Assembly (NCBI GenBank): GCA_903895995.1
Contig: CAITVX010000006.1
Coordinates: forward strand, 1 to 35,574
From: an uncultured Actinomycetes bacterium
Lineage (GTDB): Bacteria; Actinomycetota; Actinomycetes; Nanopelagicales; Nanopelagicaceae
DNA: 35,574 nucleotides
Reading direction: 5' to 3'
The position numbers were made by a program, and so were the translations under genes. Shown piece after piece: positions 834 to 25,509 of the stretch (position 1 is its first letter; every line of letters begins with the position of its first letter). The notes below the pieces were generated by a model. It saw nothing but the letters and a program-made list of their open reading frames with translations, had not been told where the DNA came from and ran no database searches.

Positions 834-908
834 TGGAGCCCCCCGTCAGGATTGAACTGACGACCTGCCGCTTACAAGGCGGCTGCTCTACCACTGAGCT
901 AGGGAGGC
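834..908 (-). tRNA. tRNA-Thr (anticodon TGT)
   Basis: The reverse strand folds into a full cloverleaf. The acceptor stem is GCCTCCC with GGGGGGC (one G-U pair), the D arm is of the TAGCTCAGTGGTAGAGC type, the anticodon stem is GCCGC/GCGGC with loop CTTGTAA, and the T arm contains GTTCAATCC. The anticodon is TGT, reading ACA threonine codons. The discriminator is T and CCA is encoded at 834-836. The gene lies between the divergent ppx gene and a co-directional membrane-protein gene. Confidence 0.95.
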
Positions 909-948
909 GTTCCCCTAGATATTCCATAAGGAGCACCTAAGAGGCGTA

Positions 949-954
949 ATTATG
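949..954 (-). promoter_or_regulatory. Possible -10 element for tRNA-Thr
   Basis: CATAAT on the reverse strand, preceded by TGC as in an extended -10, lies about 40 bases upstream of the mature tRNA 5' end. No convincing -35 was seen. Confidence 0.3.
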
Positions 955-985
955 GCACGGGCGAATCCCAGCGCGAAATCGAGGT

Positions 986-991
986 TATAGT
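986..991 (+). promoter_or_regulatory. -10 element of a leaderless promoter (ppx/gppA)
   Basis: TATAGT is followed by six bases and then the ATG at 998. Transcription is expected to begin at the A of the start codon. This TANNNT-N6-RTG spacing recurs at many starts in the window. Confidence 0.65.
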
Positions 992-997
992 CCGCAT

Positions 998-1915
998 ATG
1001 CGCCTTGGGGTTCTCGATGTTGGTTCGAATACCGTCCACCTCCAGGTCGTCGATACCCACCCAGGGGCCCGCCCAAACCCCACTTATAACTACAAAGAGG
1101 AGCTGCGCCTCACCGAATTCCTTCAAGCAGATAACTCCATCTCCCAAGCTGGAATCGAAGCTTTGCGTGGGGCTGTCAGTCGAGCTTTAGATCATGCAAA
1201 ATCTGTGAAGGTCGAAGAGTTTCTCCCCTTTGCAACATCAGCACTTCGAGAATCAGCTAATGGCGATGCAATTCTTAAGAAGATTAATAGCGAGCTGGAG
1301 ATCGATCTCCAAGTTTTAAGTGGCGAAGAGGAAGCAAAGCTCACATTCCTCGCAGCTCGTCGCTGGTTTGGTTGGTCGGCTGGTCGTTTACTTGTGATCG
1401 ATATCGGTGGTGGATCTCTTGAGATCGCAGTTGGAACCGATGAGGCCCCAGAAGCTGCAGTCTCACTTCCATTAGGTGCTGCACGGCTCACACAAAATCA
1501 TTTGATAGGAGATCCTTACACTGGCAAATCAATCGGAGTTCTTCGGGACCATATTGAAGAACAACTTGATTCAATTTTGCCAGCACTCGTTCACCATCAA
1601 GATACCGATCGTGCAATCGCAACATCAAAAACTTTGCGCACCCTTGCTCGTTTATGTGGTGATTGGTTTGATGGAAATGGAAAGAACATCAAGATCGAAG
1701 CTATTCGAAAGATCTGCAATCGCCTTGGTGATATGACCCTTGAAGAGCGCACTCGTCTGCCTGGTGTATCTGCAAACCGTGCTCGTCAGATTGTTGCGGG
1801 CGCTTATGTCACAGAATCTGTCATGCGAAATCTTGATCTACGTGAACTAGAGATCTGTCCCTGGGCGCTGCGTGAAGGCGTCGTTCTTAAATGGATGGAC
1901 TGGACCGAAAAGTAA
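998..1915 (+). CDS. ppx: Ppx/GppA-family exopolyphosphatase
   Basis: The 305-residue protein belongs to the Ppx/GppA phosphatase family (actin-like ATPase fold), which hydrolyses terminal phosphates of polyphosphate or pppGpp. The N-terminal LGVLDVGSNTVHLQVVD is the phosphate-1 loop and LLVIDIGGGSLEIAVG (about residues 130-145) the phosphate-2 loop. FATSALRESAN and SGEEEAKLTFLAAR are family signatures. The length matches short actinobacterial Ppx enzymes that lack the C-terminal HD domain. The start is fixed by a leaderless-type promoter. It ends at 1915 with no gap to the convergent mutT1. With ppk1 nearby it fits polyphosphate turnover; Ppx versus GppA specificity cannot be read from sequence. 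Confidence 0.88.
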   Translation: MRLGVLDVGSNTVHLQVVDTHPGARPNPTYNYKEELRLTEFLQADNSISQAGIEALRGAVSRALDHAKSVKVEEFLPFATSALRESANGDAILKKINSELEIDLQVLSGEEEAKLTFLAARRWFGWSAGRLLVIDIGGGSLEIAVGTDEAPEAAVSLPLGAARLTQNHLIGDPYTGKSIGVLRDHIEEQLDSILPALVHHQDTDRAIATSKTLRTLARLCGDWFDGNGKNIKIEAIRKICNRLGDMTLEERTRLPGVSANRARQIVAGAYVTESVMRNLDLRELEICPWALREGVVLKWMDWTEK

Positions 1916-2803
1916 TTATTTAACGGGCGCTTCAAGGCGGTCGATCTGCACGACCTTTTTCCCATTGTGGTGCAAAATCCAGGATTCACCAGGCTGTAGT
2001 TTGTTCGATGGATAGTCAAAATCAATCTTTTTCGTCAACTTCTCCATCATACGTGGGAGAACTGGATTGTGGCTGCAGAGAATGATTGGCTCATTAATTT
2101 TAATGAGATCTTTCGCGTAATCAATTGCCTTCTCTTTATTCTTCTTCCAGGTGTACTCGCTGACTTTATTGGTAATGGTTAAGGCAATCCCGAGTGCTTT
2201 AGCCATTTGTTCAACAGTATCGTGGCAACGGACTGCATCTGATGTGTGAATCTGAGTTAAACCATAAACCTGATAGAGAGAGAGCATCCTGCGCGCTTGC
2301 TGCTGGCCTAGTTGTTCTAGTGGACGGTCCTCATCTTCGCCTTGCCACTCTTCGCGTTCAAGTGCCTTTGCATGGCGAAGCATGATGAGTGGATAAGAAT
2401 CGAAGGGGATATTTACAAACTTCTCGATGATCTCTCGATCTGAATCCCGAGTGGATTTCTCAATTGCATCTTGGAGTGAGTGCCATTCGAGCAGATCAAC
2501 CTCTTCATTGGGATGAAATTCTGGAGAATCATCTGCAAGTCTTGCTGACCAGTAATAGACCTTCTTCAATCCTTCAGCAACAAAGTATTCGATATCGCCG
2601 ATGTATGGACCGAAGGAAACTTTGAGGTTTGTCTCTTCTAACGTCTCGCGATAAGCACATGCGATAAGAGATTCGCCTGGATCTTGCTTGCCTTTAGGAA
2701 GTGACCAATCGTCATAACGTGGACGGTGCACGAGAGCAATCTGGATCTGATTATCTCTCTTTCGCCAGATCACAGATCCTGCGGCGATGACTGTTGGATT
2801 CAC
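1916..2803 (-). CDS. mutT1: MutT1-type Nudix hydrolase fused to histidine phosphatase
   Basis: The protein has 295 residues and two domains. Residues 1-130 are a Nudix domain with a near-canonical box, GKQDPGE then RETLEETNL (G-x5-E-x7-RE-x2-EE). From about residue 138 a histidine phosphatase domain starts with LIMLRHAKA, the catalytic RHG-like motif, with a second histidine in LCSHNPVLPR. This arrangement is that of mycobacterial MutT1, which sanitises 8-oxo-dGTP/GTP and degrades diadenosine polyphosphates. The ATG overlaps the ppk1 stop by four bases (ATGA), so the two are translationally coupled. This matches the mutT1-ppk pairing known in mycobacteria. Confidence 0.9.
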   Translation of the reverse strand: MNPTVIAAGSVIWRKRDNQIQIALVHRPRYDDWSLPKGKQDPGESLIACAYRETLEETNLKVSFGPYIGDIEYFVAEGLKKVYYWSARLADDSPEFHPNEEVDLLEWHSLQDAIEKSTRDSDREIIEKFVNIPFDSYPLIMLRHAKALEREEWQGEDEDRPLEQLGQQQARRMLSLYQVYGLTQIHTSDAVRCHDTVEQMAKALGIALTITNKVSEYTWKKNKEKAIDYAKDLIKINEPIILCSHNPVLPRMMEKLTKKIDFDYPSNKLQPGESWILHHNGKKVVQIDRLEAPVK

Positions 2804-4881
2804 CCGCGGGCCCTATACCAATCAATCGAAGCCTGCTGGAAATCCATGAGGTGTTCGCCATCAGCGCCCACACTCAAACGCGACCAGGATCCATCTTTCT
2901 CCATATGCCAGCGCGCAGTGCGATCAGATAGGTAACCATCGATAGCGCGCAGCAAGTGGCGCTTATGGTCTGGCTGGGTAATTTTTACGAGAGCCTCTAC
3001 ACGGCGGCTGAGGTTTCGATCCATGAGATCGGCAGAACCAATCCAGAGCTCATCATCGCCACCATTAACAAAGTGGAATATGCGAGAGTGCTCTAAGAAT
3101 CGACCAAGTACTGATGATGCTTCAATATTATCTGAGAGACCTGGGACGCCAGCGCGGATTGAACAGATTCCACGGACAACGAGTTCGATCTTTACACCTG
3201 CTTGGCTAGCTTTATATAAAGCCTCAATAAATTCTTCAGCGAGAACAGAGTTGAGTTTCAAACGAATTCCCGCAGGCTTTCCTGCCTTTTGATTTTCAAT
3301 CTCGCGCTCAACTCGTTCCAGCAAACCAGGGGCGAGAGTGCGAGGCGCAACAAGCAAACGCTCAAAGGAAGTTTGAGGAGCAAATCCAGAGAGTTGATTA
3401 AAGAGCTTATTCACATCATCGCCCAGTACTGGATCAGCTGAAAGGATTCCAAAATCTTCATACATGCGTGCTGTCTTGGGGTTGTAGTTACCAGTACCCA
3501 TATGAACGTAGCGACGAATTCCATTGCTCTCTTGTCTCACAACAAGTGAGAGCTTTGCATGAGTCTTAAATCCAACGAGGCCGTAGACAACGTGCACGCC
3601 AGCATCTTCAAGTTTGCGAGCCCATCGCACATTTGCTTGCTCATCAAAGCGAGCACGGATCTCAATAACGGCCAGAACCTGCTTGCCAGCTTCGGCAGCT
3701 TCAATAAGTGCCGCAACAATCGGTGAGTCACCAGATGTGCGGTAAAGCGTCTGTTTTATCGCCAGAACATGGGGATCGCGAGCAGCGCTCTCCAGGAATC
3801 GAACAACTGATGAAGTGAAGGATTCATAAGGGTGATGGAGCAGAATCTCACTTCGGCGGATTGCGCTAAAGAATTCATCGTAATCTTCAGCGTCGATATC
3901 GCGCAGTGCAGGTGGGGTCTGATTCTGGAAACCAGGGAACTTCAGCTCAGGAAGATCGATATCTGCAAAGAGATTAAGTCCGGTGAGATCGAGAGGTTCT
4001 GGTACGCGAGAGATATCTTGCTCTTTAACATCGAGCTCTTCCATGAGAGTGCCGAGAAGTTCACGATCAATATCTGGATTTACCTCAAGTCGAACTGGCG
4101 GACCAAACTTACGACGAAGAAGTTCTTGCTCCATCGTCGCGAGAAGATCATCTGACTCTTCTTCTTCCAGCGCAAGATCTGCGTTGCGAGTGAGACGGAA
4201 TGTGTAATAGCTCTTGATATCCATCCCAGGAAAGAGCTCGTGCAAATTAGCGATGATGACTTGCTCGAGTGGAATGAATCGCTTGGAGATATTTCGCTCG
4301 GTAGCGATAAAGCGTGGGAGATTCGAGGGTACCTTCACGCGAGCAAAGAGCTCCTCTTGTGATTCTGGAAGTCCCACTACGACTGCAAGATTAAGTGAAA
4401 GGCCAGAGATATAAGGGAATGGGTGTGAAGGGTCGACGGCAAGTGGAGTTAAAACTGGAAAAATCTTGGAATGAAAGATCTCATTGACATAGCTCTGTTC
4501 TGTCTCCGAGAGCGCTTCCCACTTAGTGAGTTCAATCCCGTGTTCTTTAAGAGCCGGTAGGACTGAATTATGGAAGCAATGTGATTGACGTTGAATGAGC
4601 TCTTGAGTCTTCTGTGACAAAACTGTCATGAGATCCCGAGGTTTGTAGCCAGCAGTATTTGTCTTTGTAATACCTGCATCAAGCTTTCGCTTGAGCGATG
4701 CAACGCGGATCATGTAAAAATCATCGAGATTTGAGGAGAAGATTGCTAAGAAGCGACAACGCTCAAGCAGGGGCGTGCTTTCATCTTCGGCTAACTCGAG
4801 CACCCTCTGATTGAAGGCAAGCCAAGAGAGTTCGCGGTCGATTAAACGCTCGCGAGGGTTCTCAGCTATCGAGTGGGACAT
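2800..4881 (-). CDS. ppk1: Polyphosphate kinase 1
   Basis: The 693-residue protein makes polyphosphate from ATP. The N-terminal domain shows RELSWLAFNQRVLELA and SSNLDDFYMIRVA, both typical of PPK1. The two phospholipase-D-like C-terminal domains carry the phosphorylated histidine in FKTHAKLSLVVR (about H441) and a second histidine in RFLEHSRIFHF (about H598). YVHMGTGNYN is also conserved. Full length for the family. The ATG at 4881 is preceded by AAAACT-N6, a near miss to the leaderless motif, and there is no clear ribosome binding site. It is followed by the overlapping mutT1. Confidence 0.95.
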   Translation of the reverse strand: MSHSIAENPRERLIDRELSWLAFNQRVLELAEDESTPLLERCRFLAIFSSNLDDFYMIRVASLKRKLDAGITKTNTAGYKPRDLMTVLSQKTQELIQRQSHCFHNSVLPALKEHGIELTKWEALSETEQSYVNEIFHSKIFPVLTPLAVDPSHPFPYISGLSLNLAVVVGLPESQEELFARVKVPSNLPRFIATERNISKRFIPLEQVIIANLHELFPGMDIKSYYTFRLTRNADLALEEEESDDLLATMEQELLRRKFGPPVRLEVNPDIDRELLGTLMEELDVKEQDISRVPEPLDLTGLNLFADIDLPELKFPGFQNQTPPALRDIDAEDYDEFFSAIRRSEILLHHPYESFTSSVVRFLESAARDPHVLAIKQTLYRTSGDSPIVAALIEAAEAGKQVLAVIEIRARFDEQANVRWARKLEDAGVHVVYGLVGFKTHAKLSLVVRQESNGIRRYVHMGTGNYNPKTARMYEDFGILSADPVLGDDVNKLFNQLSGFAPQTSFERLLVAPRTLAPGLLERVEREIENQKAGKPAGIRLKLNSVLAEEFIEALYKASQAGVKIELVVRGICSIRAGVPGLSDNIEASSVLGRFLEHSRIFHFVNGGDDELWIGSADLMDRNLSRRVEALVKITQPDHKRHLLRAIDGYLSDRTARWHMEKDGSWSRLSVGADGEHLMDFQQASIDWYRARG

Positions 4882-22058: not shown

Positions 22059-22982
22059 ATGCATATATCACTGCCTTCAACTGACTTACTCGTCCACCCA
22101 CTCTGCCTCGGCAGCAACATCATGGGTTACACATCTAGCAAAGAAGAATCCTTCGCAGTTCTCGATGCATACGCAGCACACGGCGGAAACTTCGTCGATA
22201 CCGCTGATATGTACTCCGAGTGGGCCCCAGGTAATGATGGCCATGACTCAGAAGCGATCATCGGCGCATGGATGAAGAGCAAGGGCAACCGCGATCAGAT
22301 GGTGATTGCAACCAAGGTCTCAAAGCTCTCCACTCGCCCAGGTCTATCTGCAGCAAATATCCACGCTGCTGTTGAAGATTCTCTGAGCGCGCTCCAAACG
22401 GATTACATCGATATTTACTATGCACATGCAGATGATGAGAGCGTCCCGCTCACCGAGACTCTCCAAGCTTTTACTGAACTCATTAAGTCAGGCAAGGTCC
22501 GCTACATCGCAGCATCGAACTACACAGGAGCTCGTCTTCAAGAAGCACTTGATATTTCTGATGCGAACGGTCTTGCGAAGTACACCGGAGTGCAGAATCT
22601 TTATAACTTGCTTGATCGCAAGGAATACGAGAGCGATGTCGCAGCGGTAGTAAAGAAGAACAATCTCTGGGGCGCTCCGTATTACGGCCTCGCCAAAGGA
22701 TTCTTATCTGGCAAGTACACACCTGGTGCAAAGATTGAGACCATGCGAAACACAACCGAGTACCAGAACGATCGCGGTTGGGCAGTTATTGATGCACTTC
22801 GCGATATCGCAAAGTCCCACGACTGCTCTGTTTCGGCTCTTTCATTGGCTTGGCTTCGCGCACAAACTGGTGTCACAACACCGATCGCTTCCGCACGTCT
22901 TGCTTCTCAATTAGAGGAGATCGTGCAAGTTGTCGAGCTCAGTGGTGATGAGCTCGCGCATTTGACTACTCTGAGTAATTAG
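22059..22982 (+). CDS. Aldo/keto reductase
   Basis: The 307-residue TIM-barrel NADPH oxidoreductase shows the AKR tetrad: Asp and Tyr in FVDTADMYSEW, Lys in VIATKVSKLS and His in YYAHADDESVP. LGSNIMGY near the start and IASARLASQLEEIVQ near the end are also family features. It is likely to reduce a sugar or small aldehyde. It is divergent from the PfkB-epimerase-aminotransferase operon through a shared 25-base promoter region, suggesting one pathway. A strong terminator follows 65 bases downstream. Confidence 0.9.
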   Translation: MHISLPSTDLLVHPLCLGSNIMGYTSSKEESFAVLDAYAAHGGNFVDTADMYSEWAPGNDGHDSEAIIGAWMKSKGNRDQMVIATKVSKLSTRPGLSAANIHAAVEDSLSALQTDYIDIYYAHADDESVPLTETLQAFTELIKSGKVRYIAASNYTGARLQEALDISDANGLAKYTGVQNLYNLLDRKEYESDVAAVVKKNNLWGAPYYGLAKGFLSGKYTPGAKIETMRNTTEYQNDRGWAVIDALRDIAKSHDCSVSALSLAWLRAQTGVTTPIASARLASQLEEIVQVVELSGDELAHLTTLSN

Positions 22983-23014
22983 CCCTGCCCCACTGCAAGC
23001 TCACTAAATATTGC

Positions 23015-23020
23015 TACTCT
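23015..23020 (+). promoter_or_regulatory. Candidate -10 element for a short RNA
   Basis: TACTCT has the TANNNT form used at leaderless promoters here. With the same spacing, transcription would begin at 23027, just before a terminator. Confidence 0.3.
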
Positions 23021-23021
23021 T

Positions 23022-23035
23022 CATCCACGTGGATG
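23022..23035. repeat. 14-base perfect palindrome
   Basis: CATCCACGTGGATG is a perfect palindrome about 40 bases after the aldo/keto reductase stop. It could be an operator or the base of an RNA hairpin. CATCCACG is repeated in direct orientation at 23195-23202. Confidence 0.5.
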
Positions 23036-23080
23036 GTGAGTCCAACAAAAGAACCCAGTCAATCGACTGGGTTCTTTCTT
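23027..23080 (+). ncRNA. Candidate short RNA (or 3'-UTR fragment)
   Basis: A predicted start at 23027 and the terminator ending at 23077 would define an RNA of about 54 bases. Its 5' segment CGTGGATGGTGAG (23028-23040) is the exact reverse complement of 23190-23202 inside the tRNA-like element. It may equally be only the end of the aldo/keto reductase transcript. A 34-codon frame from 23033 exists but runs through the terminator stem. Confidence 0.25.
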
Positions 23081-23202
23081 ATTCCACAAGGCATTGTTAT
23101 GCACCAATTAAGTTTTCGTAACGTAAGCAAAAGCTGACTATGAATCATCATTCGCCTAGGCGGTGATGGTGTAAGGCAGCATGCATAGGCTCACCATCCA
23201 CG
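23028..23202. repeat. 13-base inverted repeat, arms 23028-23040 and 23190-23202
   Basis: CGTGGATGGTGAG and CTCACCATCCACG are perfect reverse complements separated by 149 bases. One arm lies in front of the terminator and the other in the anticodon-arm position of the tRNA-like element. Confidence 0.6.
23048..23077 (+). terminator. Strong intrinsic terminator
   Basis: A perfect 13-bp stem (AAAGAACCCAGTC paired with GACTGGGTTCTTT) encloses loop AATC, and the T-rich end continues as CTTATT. It should end rightward transcription from the aldo/keto reductase or a short RNA. It is symmetrical enough to work leftward as well, ending in TTTTGTT. Confidence 0.85.
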
Positions 23203-23231
23203 AGGTGCGGGTTCGAGTCCCGTTCACCGCT
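23160..23231 (+). tRNA. tRNA-like element, anticodon unresolved (possible degenerate tRNA)
   Basis: The ends are clearly tRNA-like. GCGGTGA (23160-23166) pairs perfectly with TCACCGC (23224-23230). A T arm GCGGG-TTCGAGT-CCCGT (23207-23223) and a GAGGT variable loop precede that. The D region (GTGT, AAGGCA, GCAT) fits a Gln/Glu-type D arm with a short loop. The anticodon stem does not form well: with loop CTCACCA (anticodon CAC) two of five pairs mismatch. Instead GATGGTG (23165-23171) can pair with CACCATC (23192-23198) in a competing 7-bp stem. CCA is not encoded. It could be a decayed tRNA, an unusual tRNA or a tRNA-derived RNA. Confidence 0.5.
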
Positions 23232-23237
23232 CACGAG

Positions 23238-23360
23238 TTAGCAGAGCTCGCATTCTGATCGGGTGGTGCCTGCAATGCTGGATGCAGCCGAGGAGGCATA
23301 AATAGGAAGTAATAACGATGTCGCGAGTATGGAGACAATGACCAAGGATATTTTTCTCAT
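23238..23360 (-). CDS. 40-residue putative secreted peptide ending in CELC
   Basis: A reverse-strand ATG at 23360 opens a 40-codon frame. It has a textbook signal peptide: MRK, hydrophobic core (ISLVIVSILATSLLLPIY), then ASSA as cleavage region. The mature part would be only about 16 residues, ending TTRSECELC with a CxxC motif. There is no clear ribosome binding site and no TANNNT-N6 box. A truncated gene is possible. The frame past the stop runs antisense to the tRNA-like element, so no longer protein follows. No family recognised. Confidence 0.4.
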   Translation of the reverse strand: MRKISLVIVSILATSLLLPIYASSAASSIAGTTRSECELC

Positions 23361-23441: not shown

Positions 23442-24296
23442 CTAAGGAGTTGCAGTAGGTGTTGGTCTAGCCGCACGGCCACCGCCGCCACCCGCAGCTG
23501 GAGCTCCACCCGCACCCGGTGCCGCCGCACGCAGTGTTGAAATACAAGCCTGCATCGCTGCGGCAACTTTCGGATCAGTTCGATCTGGCGGAGTTCCGGC
23601 AGTAAAGGTCACACCATTTTTCGCTAAGCAATCGACGAATGCTGGGTTATTAAAGCGTCCACCACCACCGCCGCCAGCTCCTGGAGCACCTGCTGGGCCA
23701 GCACCTGTTGGGGCACCTGCTGCACCGGTATTTGTTCCAGCTGTAGAAGGTTTGGTTCCGCCTGTTGCACCAGCTGCTGCTGGAGCACTGCCTGCAGCAC
23801 CGCCTGCACCAGCAGTACGAACAGTTACCGCATCACCTGTTGCAAGTGGTGTTGATGGAGCTGCATCTAAAGTGATTGTGACTGTTGTGCCATTTACTTT
23901 GGAAACTTTTCCAGTAATACGCGCGCCCCCACCAAATCCACCACCAGCTGCAAACCCTGCTTGAGCGCCTGCAGCACCCGCAAATGCAGCGGCCGGATCT
24001 GTGGCAGTTGCGCCAGCAGCGCCAGTGAATGCTCCGCCCGCAGCTGCACCGCGGACACGTGATGCGAATCCTGCTAATGCGTTACTTGTTGCAGATCCTG
24101 CATGTTTACTTCCGTACCAGATTCCACCAGAGACAGATCCCGTAATAATGACAAGCACTCCAAGTACTGCTGTGTACTTGTTGGTCCACTTGTAACTTCC
24201 TTTTGCGAGTTGCTCTTGAAGATTGTCATCGACATCTTTTGCAAAGAGATCAAACTCTGGATCAGAATTATTCATTTCATTACGTTCTTTACTCAT
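23442..24296 (-). CDS. Gly/Ala-rich single-pass membrane protein of the export operon
   Basis: The 284-residue protein has a polar N-terminus with an acidic stretch (DPEFDLFAKDVDDNLQEQL), one membrane helix (about 45-65) and a long outer part of low complexity, rich in Ala and Gly. Embedded in it is a small beta domain (ARITGKVSKVNGTTVTITLD, DUF5666-like). A C-terminal motif NNPAFVDCLAKNGVTF...AMQACISTLRAA carries two cysteines that could form a disulfide. The ATG at 24296 overlaps the permease stop by eight bases (ATGAGTAA). Being fourth in a MacAB-like operon, it may be an accessory or substrate of that exporter; this is inference. Confidence 0.65.
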   Translation of the reverse strand: MSKERNEMNNSDPEFDLFAKDVDDNLQEQLAKGSYKWTNKYTAVLGVLVIITGSVSGGIWYGSKHAGSATSNALAGFASRVRGAAAGGAFTGAAGATATDPAAAFAGAAGAQAGFAAGGGFGGGARITGKVSKVNGTTVTITLDAAPSTPLATGDAVTVRTAGAGGAAGSAPAAAGATGGTKPSTAGTNTGAAGAPTGAGPAGAPGAGGGGGGRFNNPAFVDCLAKNGVTFTAGTPPDRTDPKVAAAMQACISTLRAAAPGAGGAPAAGGGGGRAARPTPTATP

Positions 24297-25509
24297 GGCG
24301 GAGTGCCTCGATTGGTCGTAGGGATGCTGCGCGTGATGCTGGGTAGCTGCCGAAGAAGAGTCCAATAAGGACTGATACTCCGGAGGCTAAGAGAACTGAT
24401 GCGGGAACAATCACAGGTTGGATACCGATGATCTTGAAGTGAGATCCGATATAGCCGCCGATAACACCTATGCCACCACCGACAAGCGAGAGGATCGTTG
24501 CCTCGATCAAGAACTGAGACAAGATCGCACCCTTGGGGGCGCCGATCGCTTTGCGAATACCGATCTCACGAGTGCGCTCGACGACTGTCACGAGCATAAT
24601 GTTGGTGATGCCGATACCGCCGACGAGCAAGGAGATCGCTGCGACCACTCCCAAAAGCACTGTAAATACGCTGCTATTTGAGGATGATGTGGCGAGCAAA
24701 GATGCCTGGTTCAGGGTCCGATAGTCACGGTTGCTGGTGTTCTTCACCTTGTGCTGTGCATCCATAATCGTATTGATCTCAGTCTGCGCAAAATCTTGTA
24801 CCTTCGCAGACTTCGCTTCAACGACGATTGATTGCAGTGAGTTATAGCCGGTGAGTGAGCGTTGAACAGCAGTCAGAGGTGCAACAACAAGTGAGTCACC
24901 ATCTTGGAAGCCACTTGAACCCTTGACGGTTGTTGTGCCAATTACTGTAAATGGAATTCCACCGCAGCGAATCTCTTGACCAATAGGACTCTGCGTTCCA
25001 AATAAATCGGTCGCAGTTGTGTTGCCGATAACTGCTACGCGACGACCCTGAACGACGTCATCGTTGGTGAAGTAAGAACCCTTGGCAATCGATGTATTAG
25101 ATGCCTCAAACCATGCAGGCCAGGTTCCGTTGAAAGTCCCCGGTGTAGAAGTATTTGATCCATTAGTACATGTCGCGGTAGCCGATGCGACGGGTGCAAC
25201 TTGTTTGATATCAGGTGCTTTGATCGGATCTGAAAGTGCGACTGCATCTGCAACGGTGAGCGGCTTTGATGACGCGCCACGTGATGCAGCTTGGCGACCG
25301 AATCCACCGCGGTTTGCCTGAATGGTGATCGTATTTGTTCCGAGGCGATCAATCGAAGATTGAATCTGCTTCGAGGAACCATTACCGACCGCGATAAGGA
25401 TAATCACTGAGGCAACACCGATCGCGATTCCTAAAGTTGTCAGCGCAGTACGGAGCTTGTTAGTCCCAAGTCCACGGAAGGCGAAGCGAACGATCTCAAG
25501 GATATTCAT
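24289..25509 (-). CDS. MacB/FtsX-type ABC transporter permease
   Basis: The 406-residue protein has an N-terminal membrane helix (LRTALTTLGIAIGVASVIILIAVG around 20-45), a large extracytoplasmic MacB_PCD-like domain (about 50-280) and three C-terminal membrane helices of the FtsX domain. REIGIRKAIGAPKGAIL is typical of FtsX permeases. Such mechanotransmission transporters extrude peptides, lipoproteins or drugs from the outer leaflet instead of carrying them across. It is coupled to the ATPase by an ATGA overlap. Gram-positive members work without an outer-membrane channel. Confidence 0.88.
   Translation of the reverse strand: MNILEIVRFAFRGLGTNKLRTALTTLGIAIGVASVIILIAVGNGSSKQIQSSIDRLGTNTITIQANRGGFGRQAASRGASSKPLTVADAVALSDPIKAPDIKQVAPVASATATCTNGSNTSTPGTFNGTWPAWFEASNTSIAKGSYFTNDDVVQGRRVAVIGNTTATDLFGTQSPIGQEIRCGGIPFTVIGTTTVKGSSGFQDGDSLVVAPLTAVQRSLTGYNSLQSIVVEAKSAKVQDFAQTEINTIMDAQHKVKNTSNRDYRTLNQASLLATSSSNSSVFTVLLGVVAAISLLVGGIGITNIMLVTVVERTREIGIRKAIGAPKGAILSQFLIEATILSLVGGGIGVIGGYIGSHFKIIGIQPVIVPASVLLASGVSVLIGLFFGSYPASRAASLRPIEALRHE

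Follow-up and report, generated by a model that had tools for sequence, protein, structure and literature searches.

We analyzed a 35,574-nucleotide stretch of DNA (the window) from a 1.36-Mb draft genome in 39 contigs. A tRNA-like domain lies at 23160 to 23231 of the plus strand, followed by part of a hairpin and by the remnant of a secreted-protein gene:

23160 to 23231, plus strand: tRNA-like domain, 52.5 bits against the family model described below
23160 to 23166 with 23224 to 23230, plus strand: acceptor stem, 7 bp (GCGGTGA/TCACCGC)
23169 to 23172 with 23179 to 23182, plus strand: D stem (TGGTGTAA..GGCAGCAT)
23184 to 23189 with 23197 to 23202, plus strand: anticodon stem, 4 of 6 pairs formed
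23193 to 23196, plus strand: RCCA motif (ACCA) of the anticodon loop, whose partner by covariation is the UGGY of a 3' hairpin loop
23207 to 23211 with 23219 to 23223, plus strand: T stem (GCGGG/CCCGT)
23236 to 23253, plus strand: 5' arm of the 3' hairpin (AGTTAGCAGAGCTCGCAT); the 3' arm is absent from the window, and the relative G017 has the full 18-bp stem
23264 to 23268, plus strand: hairpin-loop motif TGGTG, the predicted partner of CACCA in the anticodon loop
23266 to 23270, plus strand: deletion junction with GTGCC common to both sides, at which about 1.2 kb of G017 is missing
23268 to 23360, minus strand: remnant comprising the first 31 codons (MRKISLVIVSIL...) of a 423-amino-acid secreted-protein gene that is whole in G017

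The window copy and its relatives

An earlier note, made from the letters of the window, had placed a tRNA-like element at these coordinates, with intact acceptor and T arms, a Gln-type D region and a failed anticodon stem. This description was borne out: the two arms are complete save for one G-U pair, the D stem resembles the D arm of actinobacterial tRNA-Gln, and the best reading of the anticodon stem is a 6-bp helix with four pairs formed around the loop CTCACCA. The tRNA-finder check that the note proposed gave an ARAGORN call of tRNA-Val(CAC) at 23160 to 23232. With the Rfam tRNA model, the element scored 39.2 bits (E value of 5e-5), the lowest score among the genome's 33 tRNA matches. 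The fold of the window copy is no better than that of shuffled sequences (z score of 0.12), and the intact sister copy in G017 has a z score of -3.73.

The note had further proposed that a 7-bp alternative stem (23165 to 23171 with 23192 to 23198) competes with the cloverleaf and might make it a regulated fold. The stem is exact in the window (GATGGTG/CACCATC) but is broken in the relative G007 and is thus not a conserved feature; we therefore rejected it as a conserved switch, and regulation through it is unsupported. The observation that intact ends with a lost middle would be odd for random decay was sound. The cause lies in the anticodon arm of the family, a 6-bp stem with frequent mismatches and a loop whose RCCA is engaged in a cis contact, together with one fresh mutation in the window copy.

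Two of 31 congeners, G017 and G007, carry the same subtype, and most congeners have no element at the window's place. G017 is 99% identical to the window over 191 nucleotides, and its RCCA-loop domain scores 67.9 bits against the family model. G007 is 81% identical over 99 nucleotides; its arms are preserved, its anticodon arm differs and its flanks are unlike those of the window copy. Had relatives shown a normal tRNA at this site, plain degradation would have been favored; the carriers instead have the same odd kind of element in a more complete form.

Compared with G017, the window jumps at GTGCC over 1.2 kb and lands within the first 31 codons of the secreted-protein gene. The 3' hairpin with its UGGY loop is whole in G017 and is reduced in the window to the 5' arm and the loop. 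In the anticodon stem, an A in the window replaces a G in G017 and breaks one pair. An insertion in G017 is less likely than a deletion in the window, because parts of both the gene (its first 31 codons) and the RNA's hairpin (one half) survive in the window. From these sequence comparisons, the window copy is most likely a 3'-truncated, recently damaged member of a larger family. With the hairpin's 3' arm deleted and one stem pair disrupted, it is probably defunct or on its way to becoming so. The same genome has a fuller copy on contig C37, which scores 90.8 bits.

The surroundings of the window copy also differ between relatives. The homology of 22881 to 23270 to the sister contig L045 begins within the 3' end of an aldo/keto reductase gene, upstream of which the sister contig has a glutamate dehydrogenase gene instead, and local rearrangement appears to have affected this site. 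A proline/glycine-rich open reading frame on the minus strand (23442 to 24365), with no Pfam match, adjoins the element. A ppk/nudix/ppx/tRNA-Thr block present in the window (834 to 4881; L044 3460 to 7662) is the site of the G007 copy, which lies beside tRNA-Thr; the window copy is 22 kb from this block, and the gene has therefore moved. In G475, from another genus, the copy likewise lies beside a tRNA of the same antisense sequence.

The RNA family and its architecture

A second odd element on contig C37 of the same genome, called as tRNA-Ala(CGC), led us to further members. Pattern searches gave 36 members in seven genera of the bacterial family; these have the D arm, the T arm and the RCCA loop in common and differ in acceptor sequence and genomic place. 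When a covariance model built from 15 members was applied to 296 genomes of the bacterial family, at least 110 matches reached 73.9 bits or more, distributed over 85 of the genomes. The ordinary tRNAs of this genome that were tested reached at most 51 bits on the model, and the best-scoring nonmembers were ordinary tRNA-Gly genes elsewhere, at up to about 66 to 70 bits.

The host range is probably one family of streamlined actinobacteria, the Nanopelagicaceae (acI). Matches of 67 to 70 bits in other families proved to be ordinary tRNA-Gly genes, and we rejected a spread past the bacterial family. A 104-bit copy (L284 2000 to 2144; G405:C4) was found on a 3.2-kb contig of G405, which belongs to another bacterial family. 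The genes on this contig resemble the neighbors of copies in the main family, so the copy is possibly a binning error; horizontal transfer is the other possible source. A phage origin was also rejected, since the subfamily pattern had no match in the viral contigs searched. Among 100 matches of a wider pattern in these contigs, none had the TT[TC]NRCCAA loop together with the GTGGTGTA D arm; a third pattern gave four matches there, including a tRNA (L184) whose loop has similar letters.

The full-length RNA is about 145 nucleotides long, often with a terminator in addition. In most members, about 70 nucleotides beyond the tRNA-like part fold into a hairpin with CTCAA/TTGAG or its equivalent as the closing stem, and the terminator often comes next. 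The hairpin loops (UUGGU, UUGGC, UGGUG, UGGUC and others) are each complementary to the anticodon loop of their own copy. Some members, such as L224, L231, L235 and L238, have no 3' hairpin. When 15 members were aligned by MAFFT without structure, 94.3% of the cells of the proposed structure were paired, compared with 31 to 48% when the structure was slid along the alignment, and 16 pairs were doubly changed. The minimum-energy fold of the intact copy L223 gave the cloverleaf, the acceptor extension and the 3' hairpin unaided.

Comparison of the members indicated that the UGGY of the hairpin loop pairs with the RCCA of the anticodon loop. The R:Y pair of this contact is A-U in eight and G-C in seven of the 15 members. 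In a 45-member alignment fitted to the helices of the model, outside which the loop-loop pair lies, it is A-U in 26, G-C in 12 and G-U in 2, with none of the 40 broken, and its covariation was 0.444, versus 0.178 when shuffled. R and Y each changed at least five times on a tree computed from the columns outside the contact. Copy-by-copy complementarity of the loops is weak relative to shuffled sequences, and the case for the contact therefore rests on covariation. The acceptor is also extended, across a small internal loop, by a helix of 2 to 3 bp, which incorporates the CCA position (pair 5-88 is CG in 26 and UA in 13 sequences of the 45-member alignment). The two contacts together imply that neither working end of a tRNA is free in the unprocessed RNA.

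On this evidence, the window element is very probably a truncated copy of a family of structured, presumably separately transcribed RNAs. The suggestion in the earlier note of a tRNA mimic is partly supported: it came near the mark for the family, which has a conserved tRNA-like domain within a longer RNA. The genes beside the copies are diverse, and the 3' neighbor is mostly convergent, so the RNA appears to stand alone. Neither a partner protein nor a common neighbor gene was found in the gene contexts of the copies, and a fixed partner gene was rejected because the contexts follow no common rule.

Two local associations were seen that are not general. Three copies (L266, L274 and L275) share a strand with the RNase P RNA gene and lie about 180 to 240 nucleotides downstream of it. 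Four others (L227, L236, L240 and L249) are near toxin-antitoxin genes, namely AbiEi/AbiEii, nucleotidyltransferase/HepT with ParE, and MazE/PIN; several of these toxin-antitoxin families act on tRNA or RNA.

We consider the family previously unrecognized, as its architecture is unmatched by any Rfam 15 family. In an Rfam 15 search at these RNAs, tRNA alone was above threshold (skipping-rope reached 26.8 bits, versus the 36.7 required). A search of open-licence papers found no description of the family; an earlier description elsewhere is possible.

The family resembles ordinary tRNA-Gly (GCC/CCC) in the T arm, the 3' half and the RCC in the loop but differs in its cis-paired anticodon loop and CCA position, its 3' hairpin, its D arm and the DnaA-box-like sites upstream. 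The bacterial Y RNA YrlA likewise holds a tRNA-like domain inside a longer noncoding RNA; in the family described here, in contrast, a hairpin lies on the 3' side and is docked on the anticodon loop. None of eight carrier genomes encodes a Ro (TROVE) protein, which led us to reject a Y RNA identity, and Rfam gave no YrlA match at these RNAs. In tmRNA, too, a tRNA-like domain is part of a longer RNA. The tRNA part of the family, however, forms one uninterrupted block on the 5' side, a reading frame for a tag was not identified, and the genome has a separate, normal tmRNA elsewhere; the contiguous domain and the separate tmRNA gene rule out a tmRNA identity. The T-box riboswitch with its tRNA-Gly offers a further likeness, since base pairing between an anticodon-like RCC loop and a codon-like GGY element occurs in both and the UGGN of the family is similar to the T-box bulge. 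Here, unlike in the T-box system, both partners are in one RNA and there is as a rule no regulated downstream gene. We rejected a T-box leader because the next gene is mostly convergent and no downstream gene is common to the copies.

The upstream cassette

The RNA is preceded by a cassette that consists, in order, of a terminator-type hairpin, DnaA-box-like sites (often two) and about 55 nucleotides that lead to the RNA. The parts of this cassette in the window are as follows:

23048 to 23077, plus strand: terminator-type hairpin (AAAGAACCCAGTC-AATC-GACTGGGTTCTTT) with a 13-bp perfect stem and a fold z score of -7.4
23080 to 23088, plus strand: DnaA-box-like site 1 (TATTCCACA), one mismatch to TTWTNCACA, with position and spacing conserved in the family
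23097 to 23105, plus strand: DnaA-box-like site 2 (TTATGCACC), one mismatch, 17 bp from site 1
23143 to 23153, plus strand: putative -10 region, with a conserved A at -16 and, across the family, a -10-like peak 38 to 39 nucleotides after site 2

We compared 61 distinct upstream regions. TTWTNCACA with at most one mismatch was found at about -63 in 41 of them, versus a mean of 1.3 and a maximum of 5 in shuffled sets, and 36 have a second copy, usually 17 bp further upstream (about -80). Both sites are within one mismatch in only 22 members. A terminator-type hairpin lies just upstream of the sites in 48 of the 61, and the motif was absent from the upstream regions of all 38 ordinary tRNA genes. 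The tandem sites of the window have the correct spacing of 17 bp with one mismatch each; such sites are not above chance across the window.

Between dnaA and dnaN, this genome has TTATCCACA twice and TTTTCCACA once, which are 9-mers of the same kind as the cassette motif. In sequence, the motif thus corresponds to the DnaA boxes of the organism itself. The chances that the cassette sites are linked to DnaA are about even. A role of the motif as a -35 element was rejected: no -10-like peak occurs 15 to 19 nucleotides after it, and the peak at 38 to 39 nucleotides adjoins the cloverleaf. This spacing suggests a transcription start about 5 nucleotides ahead of the cloverleaf, where the extension helix begins, which would be close to 23155 in the window.

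Possible functions of the RNA

The architecture described above holds independently of any mechanism. We propose that the RNA would be transcribed from about 5 nucleotides upstream of the cloverleaf under the control of DnaA or another factor that binds TTWTNCACA, and that it would act in trans, as a mimic or decoy of the tRNA body or as an effector, on a tRNA-binding protein or enzyme. While closed, it could be neither charged nor used in decoding, and the regulated step would be the opening of the RCCA:UGGY contact. By analogy with the T-box bulge, UGGY might also take the RCCA end of an uncharged tRNA. A decoy function is a tentative proposal. The fuller version, in which DnaA controls a tRNA-mimic RNA that ties replication initiation to translation or tRNA processing and whose RCCA:UGGY lock is opened by an uncharged tRNA end or a protein, is more doubtful.

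The cassette might instead act mainly as DNA, as a site that binds or titrates DnaA and at which transcription of the RNA controls that binding. The box-like sites and the terminator-type hairpin are conserved parts of the cassette, and a precedent exists in E. coli, where transcription of the tRNA-Gly operon glyVXY influences the DnaA-binding locus datA, located downstream of that operon (PMC10950094). In both cases DnaA-binding sites, putative ones in the family, adjoin a tRNA-Gly-type transcription unit. Unlike those of datA, however, the sites of the family lie upstream of the RNA, number at most two per cassette and are insulated by the terminator-type hairpin. The RNA structure is moreover kept by covariation, which a DNA-only role would not need, and we regard such a role as unlikely.

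It is also quite unlikely that the UGGY loop serves to sense the RCCA end of uncharged tRNA in trans, as a T-box bulge does, the cis contact being its off state. Both R73-CCA and the cis RCCA are complementary to UGGY, but as a rule no gene lies downstream on the same strand and, if the terminators act as their form suggests, the RNA would end there in many copies.

We further weighed whether the family consists of genuine but unusual tRNAs that are charged and decode, Val(CAC) here and Ala(CGC) or Gly(ACC) in other members. Both ARAGORN and Rfam call a tRNA, some members have CCA after A73, and no other CAC tRNA was found among those recovered from the 39-contig draft, a check raised in the earlier note, although Val-TAC and Val-GAC are present. 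Against this, the anticodons CAC, GAC, CGC, TGC and ACC all occur within one RNA family, the "Ala" members L046 and L047 are without G3-U70, U73 and the acceptor are variable, and the element is absent from most congeners. Nor does the family have the parts of a functional tRNA: the anticodon stem is incomplete in the window and commonly mismatched elsewhere, position 37 is C rather than a purine in the window copy and in most members, the anticodon loop is paired in cis, and the CCA position of the unprocessed RNA is not a free 3' end but pairs and covaries with the 5' side. Such decoding tRNAs are very improbable. A simple tRNA pseudogene in decay, unconnected with any relevant family, which the weak anticodon arm, the truncation and the chance-level fold would fit, is partly true of the window copy alone but is contradicted for the family by odd features that are common and covary in about 10 genera, and it hardly merits belief as a general account.

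The preferred reading, a family of structured RNAs that contain a tRNA-like domain, would mean that an RNA class is concealed under "tRNA" annotation in freshwater actinobacteria and that tRNA finders may assign anticodons to RNAs that probably never decode. The DnaA-box-like sites raise a possible link between replication initiation and a tRNA mimic.

As a separate observation, tRNA-Leu(TAA) and tRNA-Leu(CAA) (L023 and L027; G000 contigs C12 and C14) were called with a short variable loop; a normal tRNA-Leu has a long variable arm.
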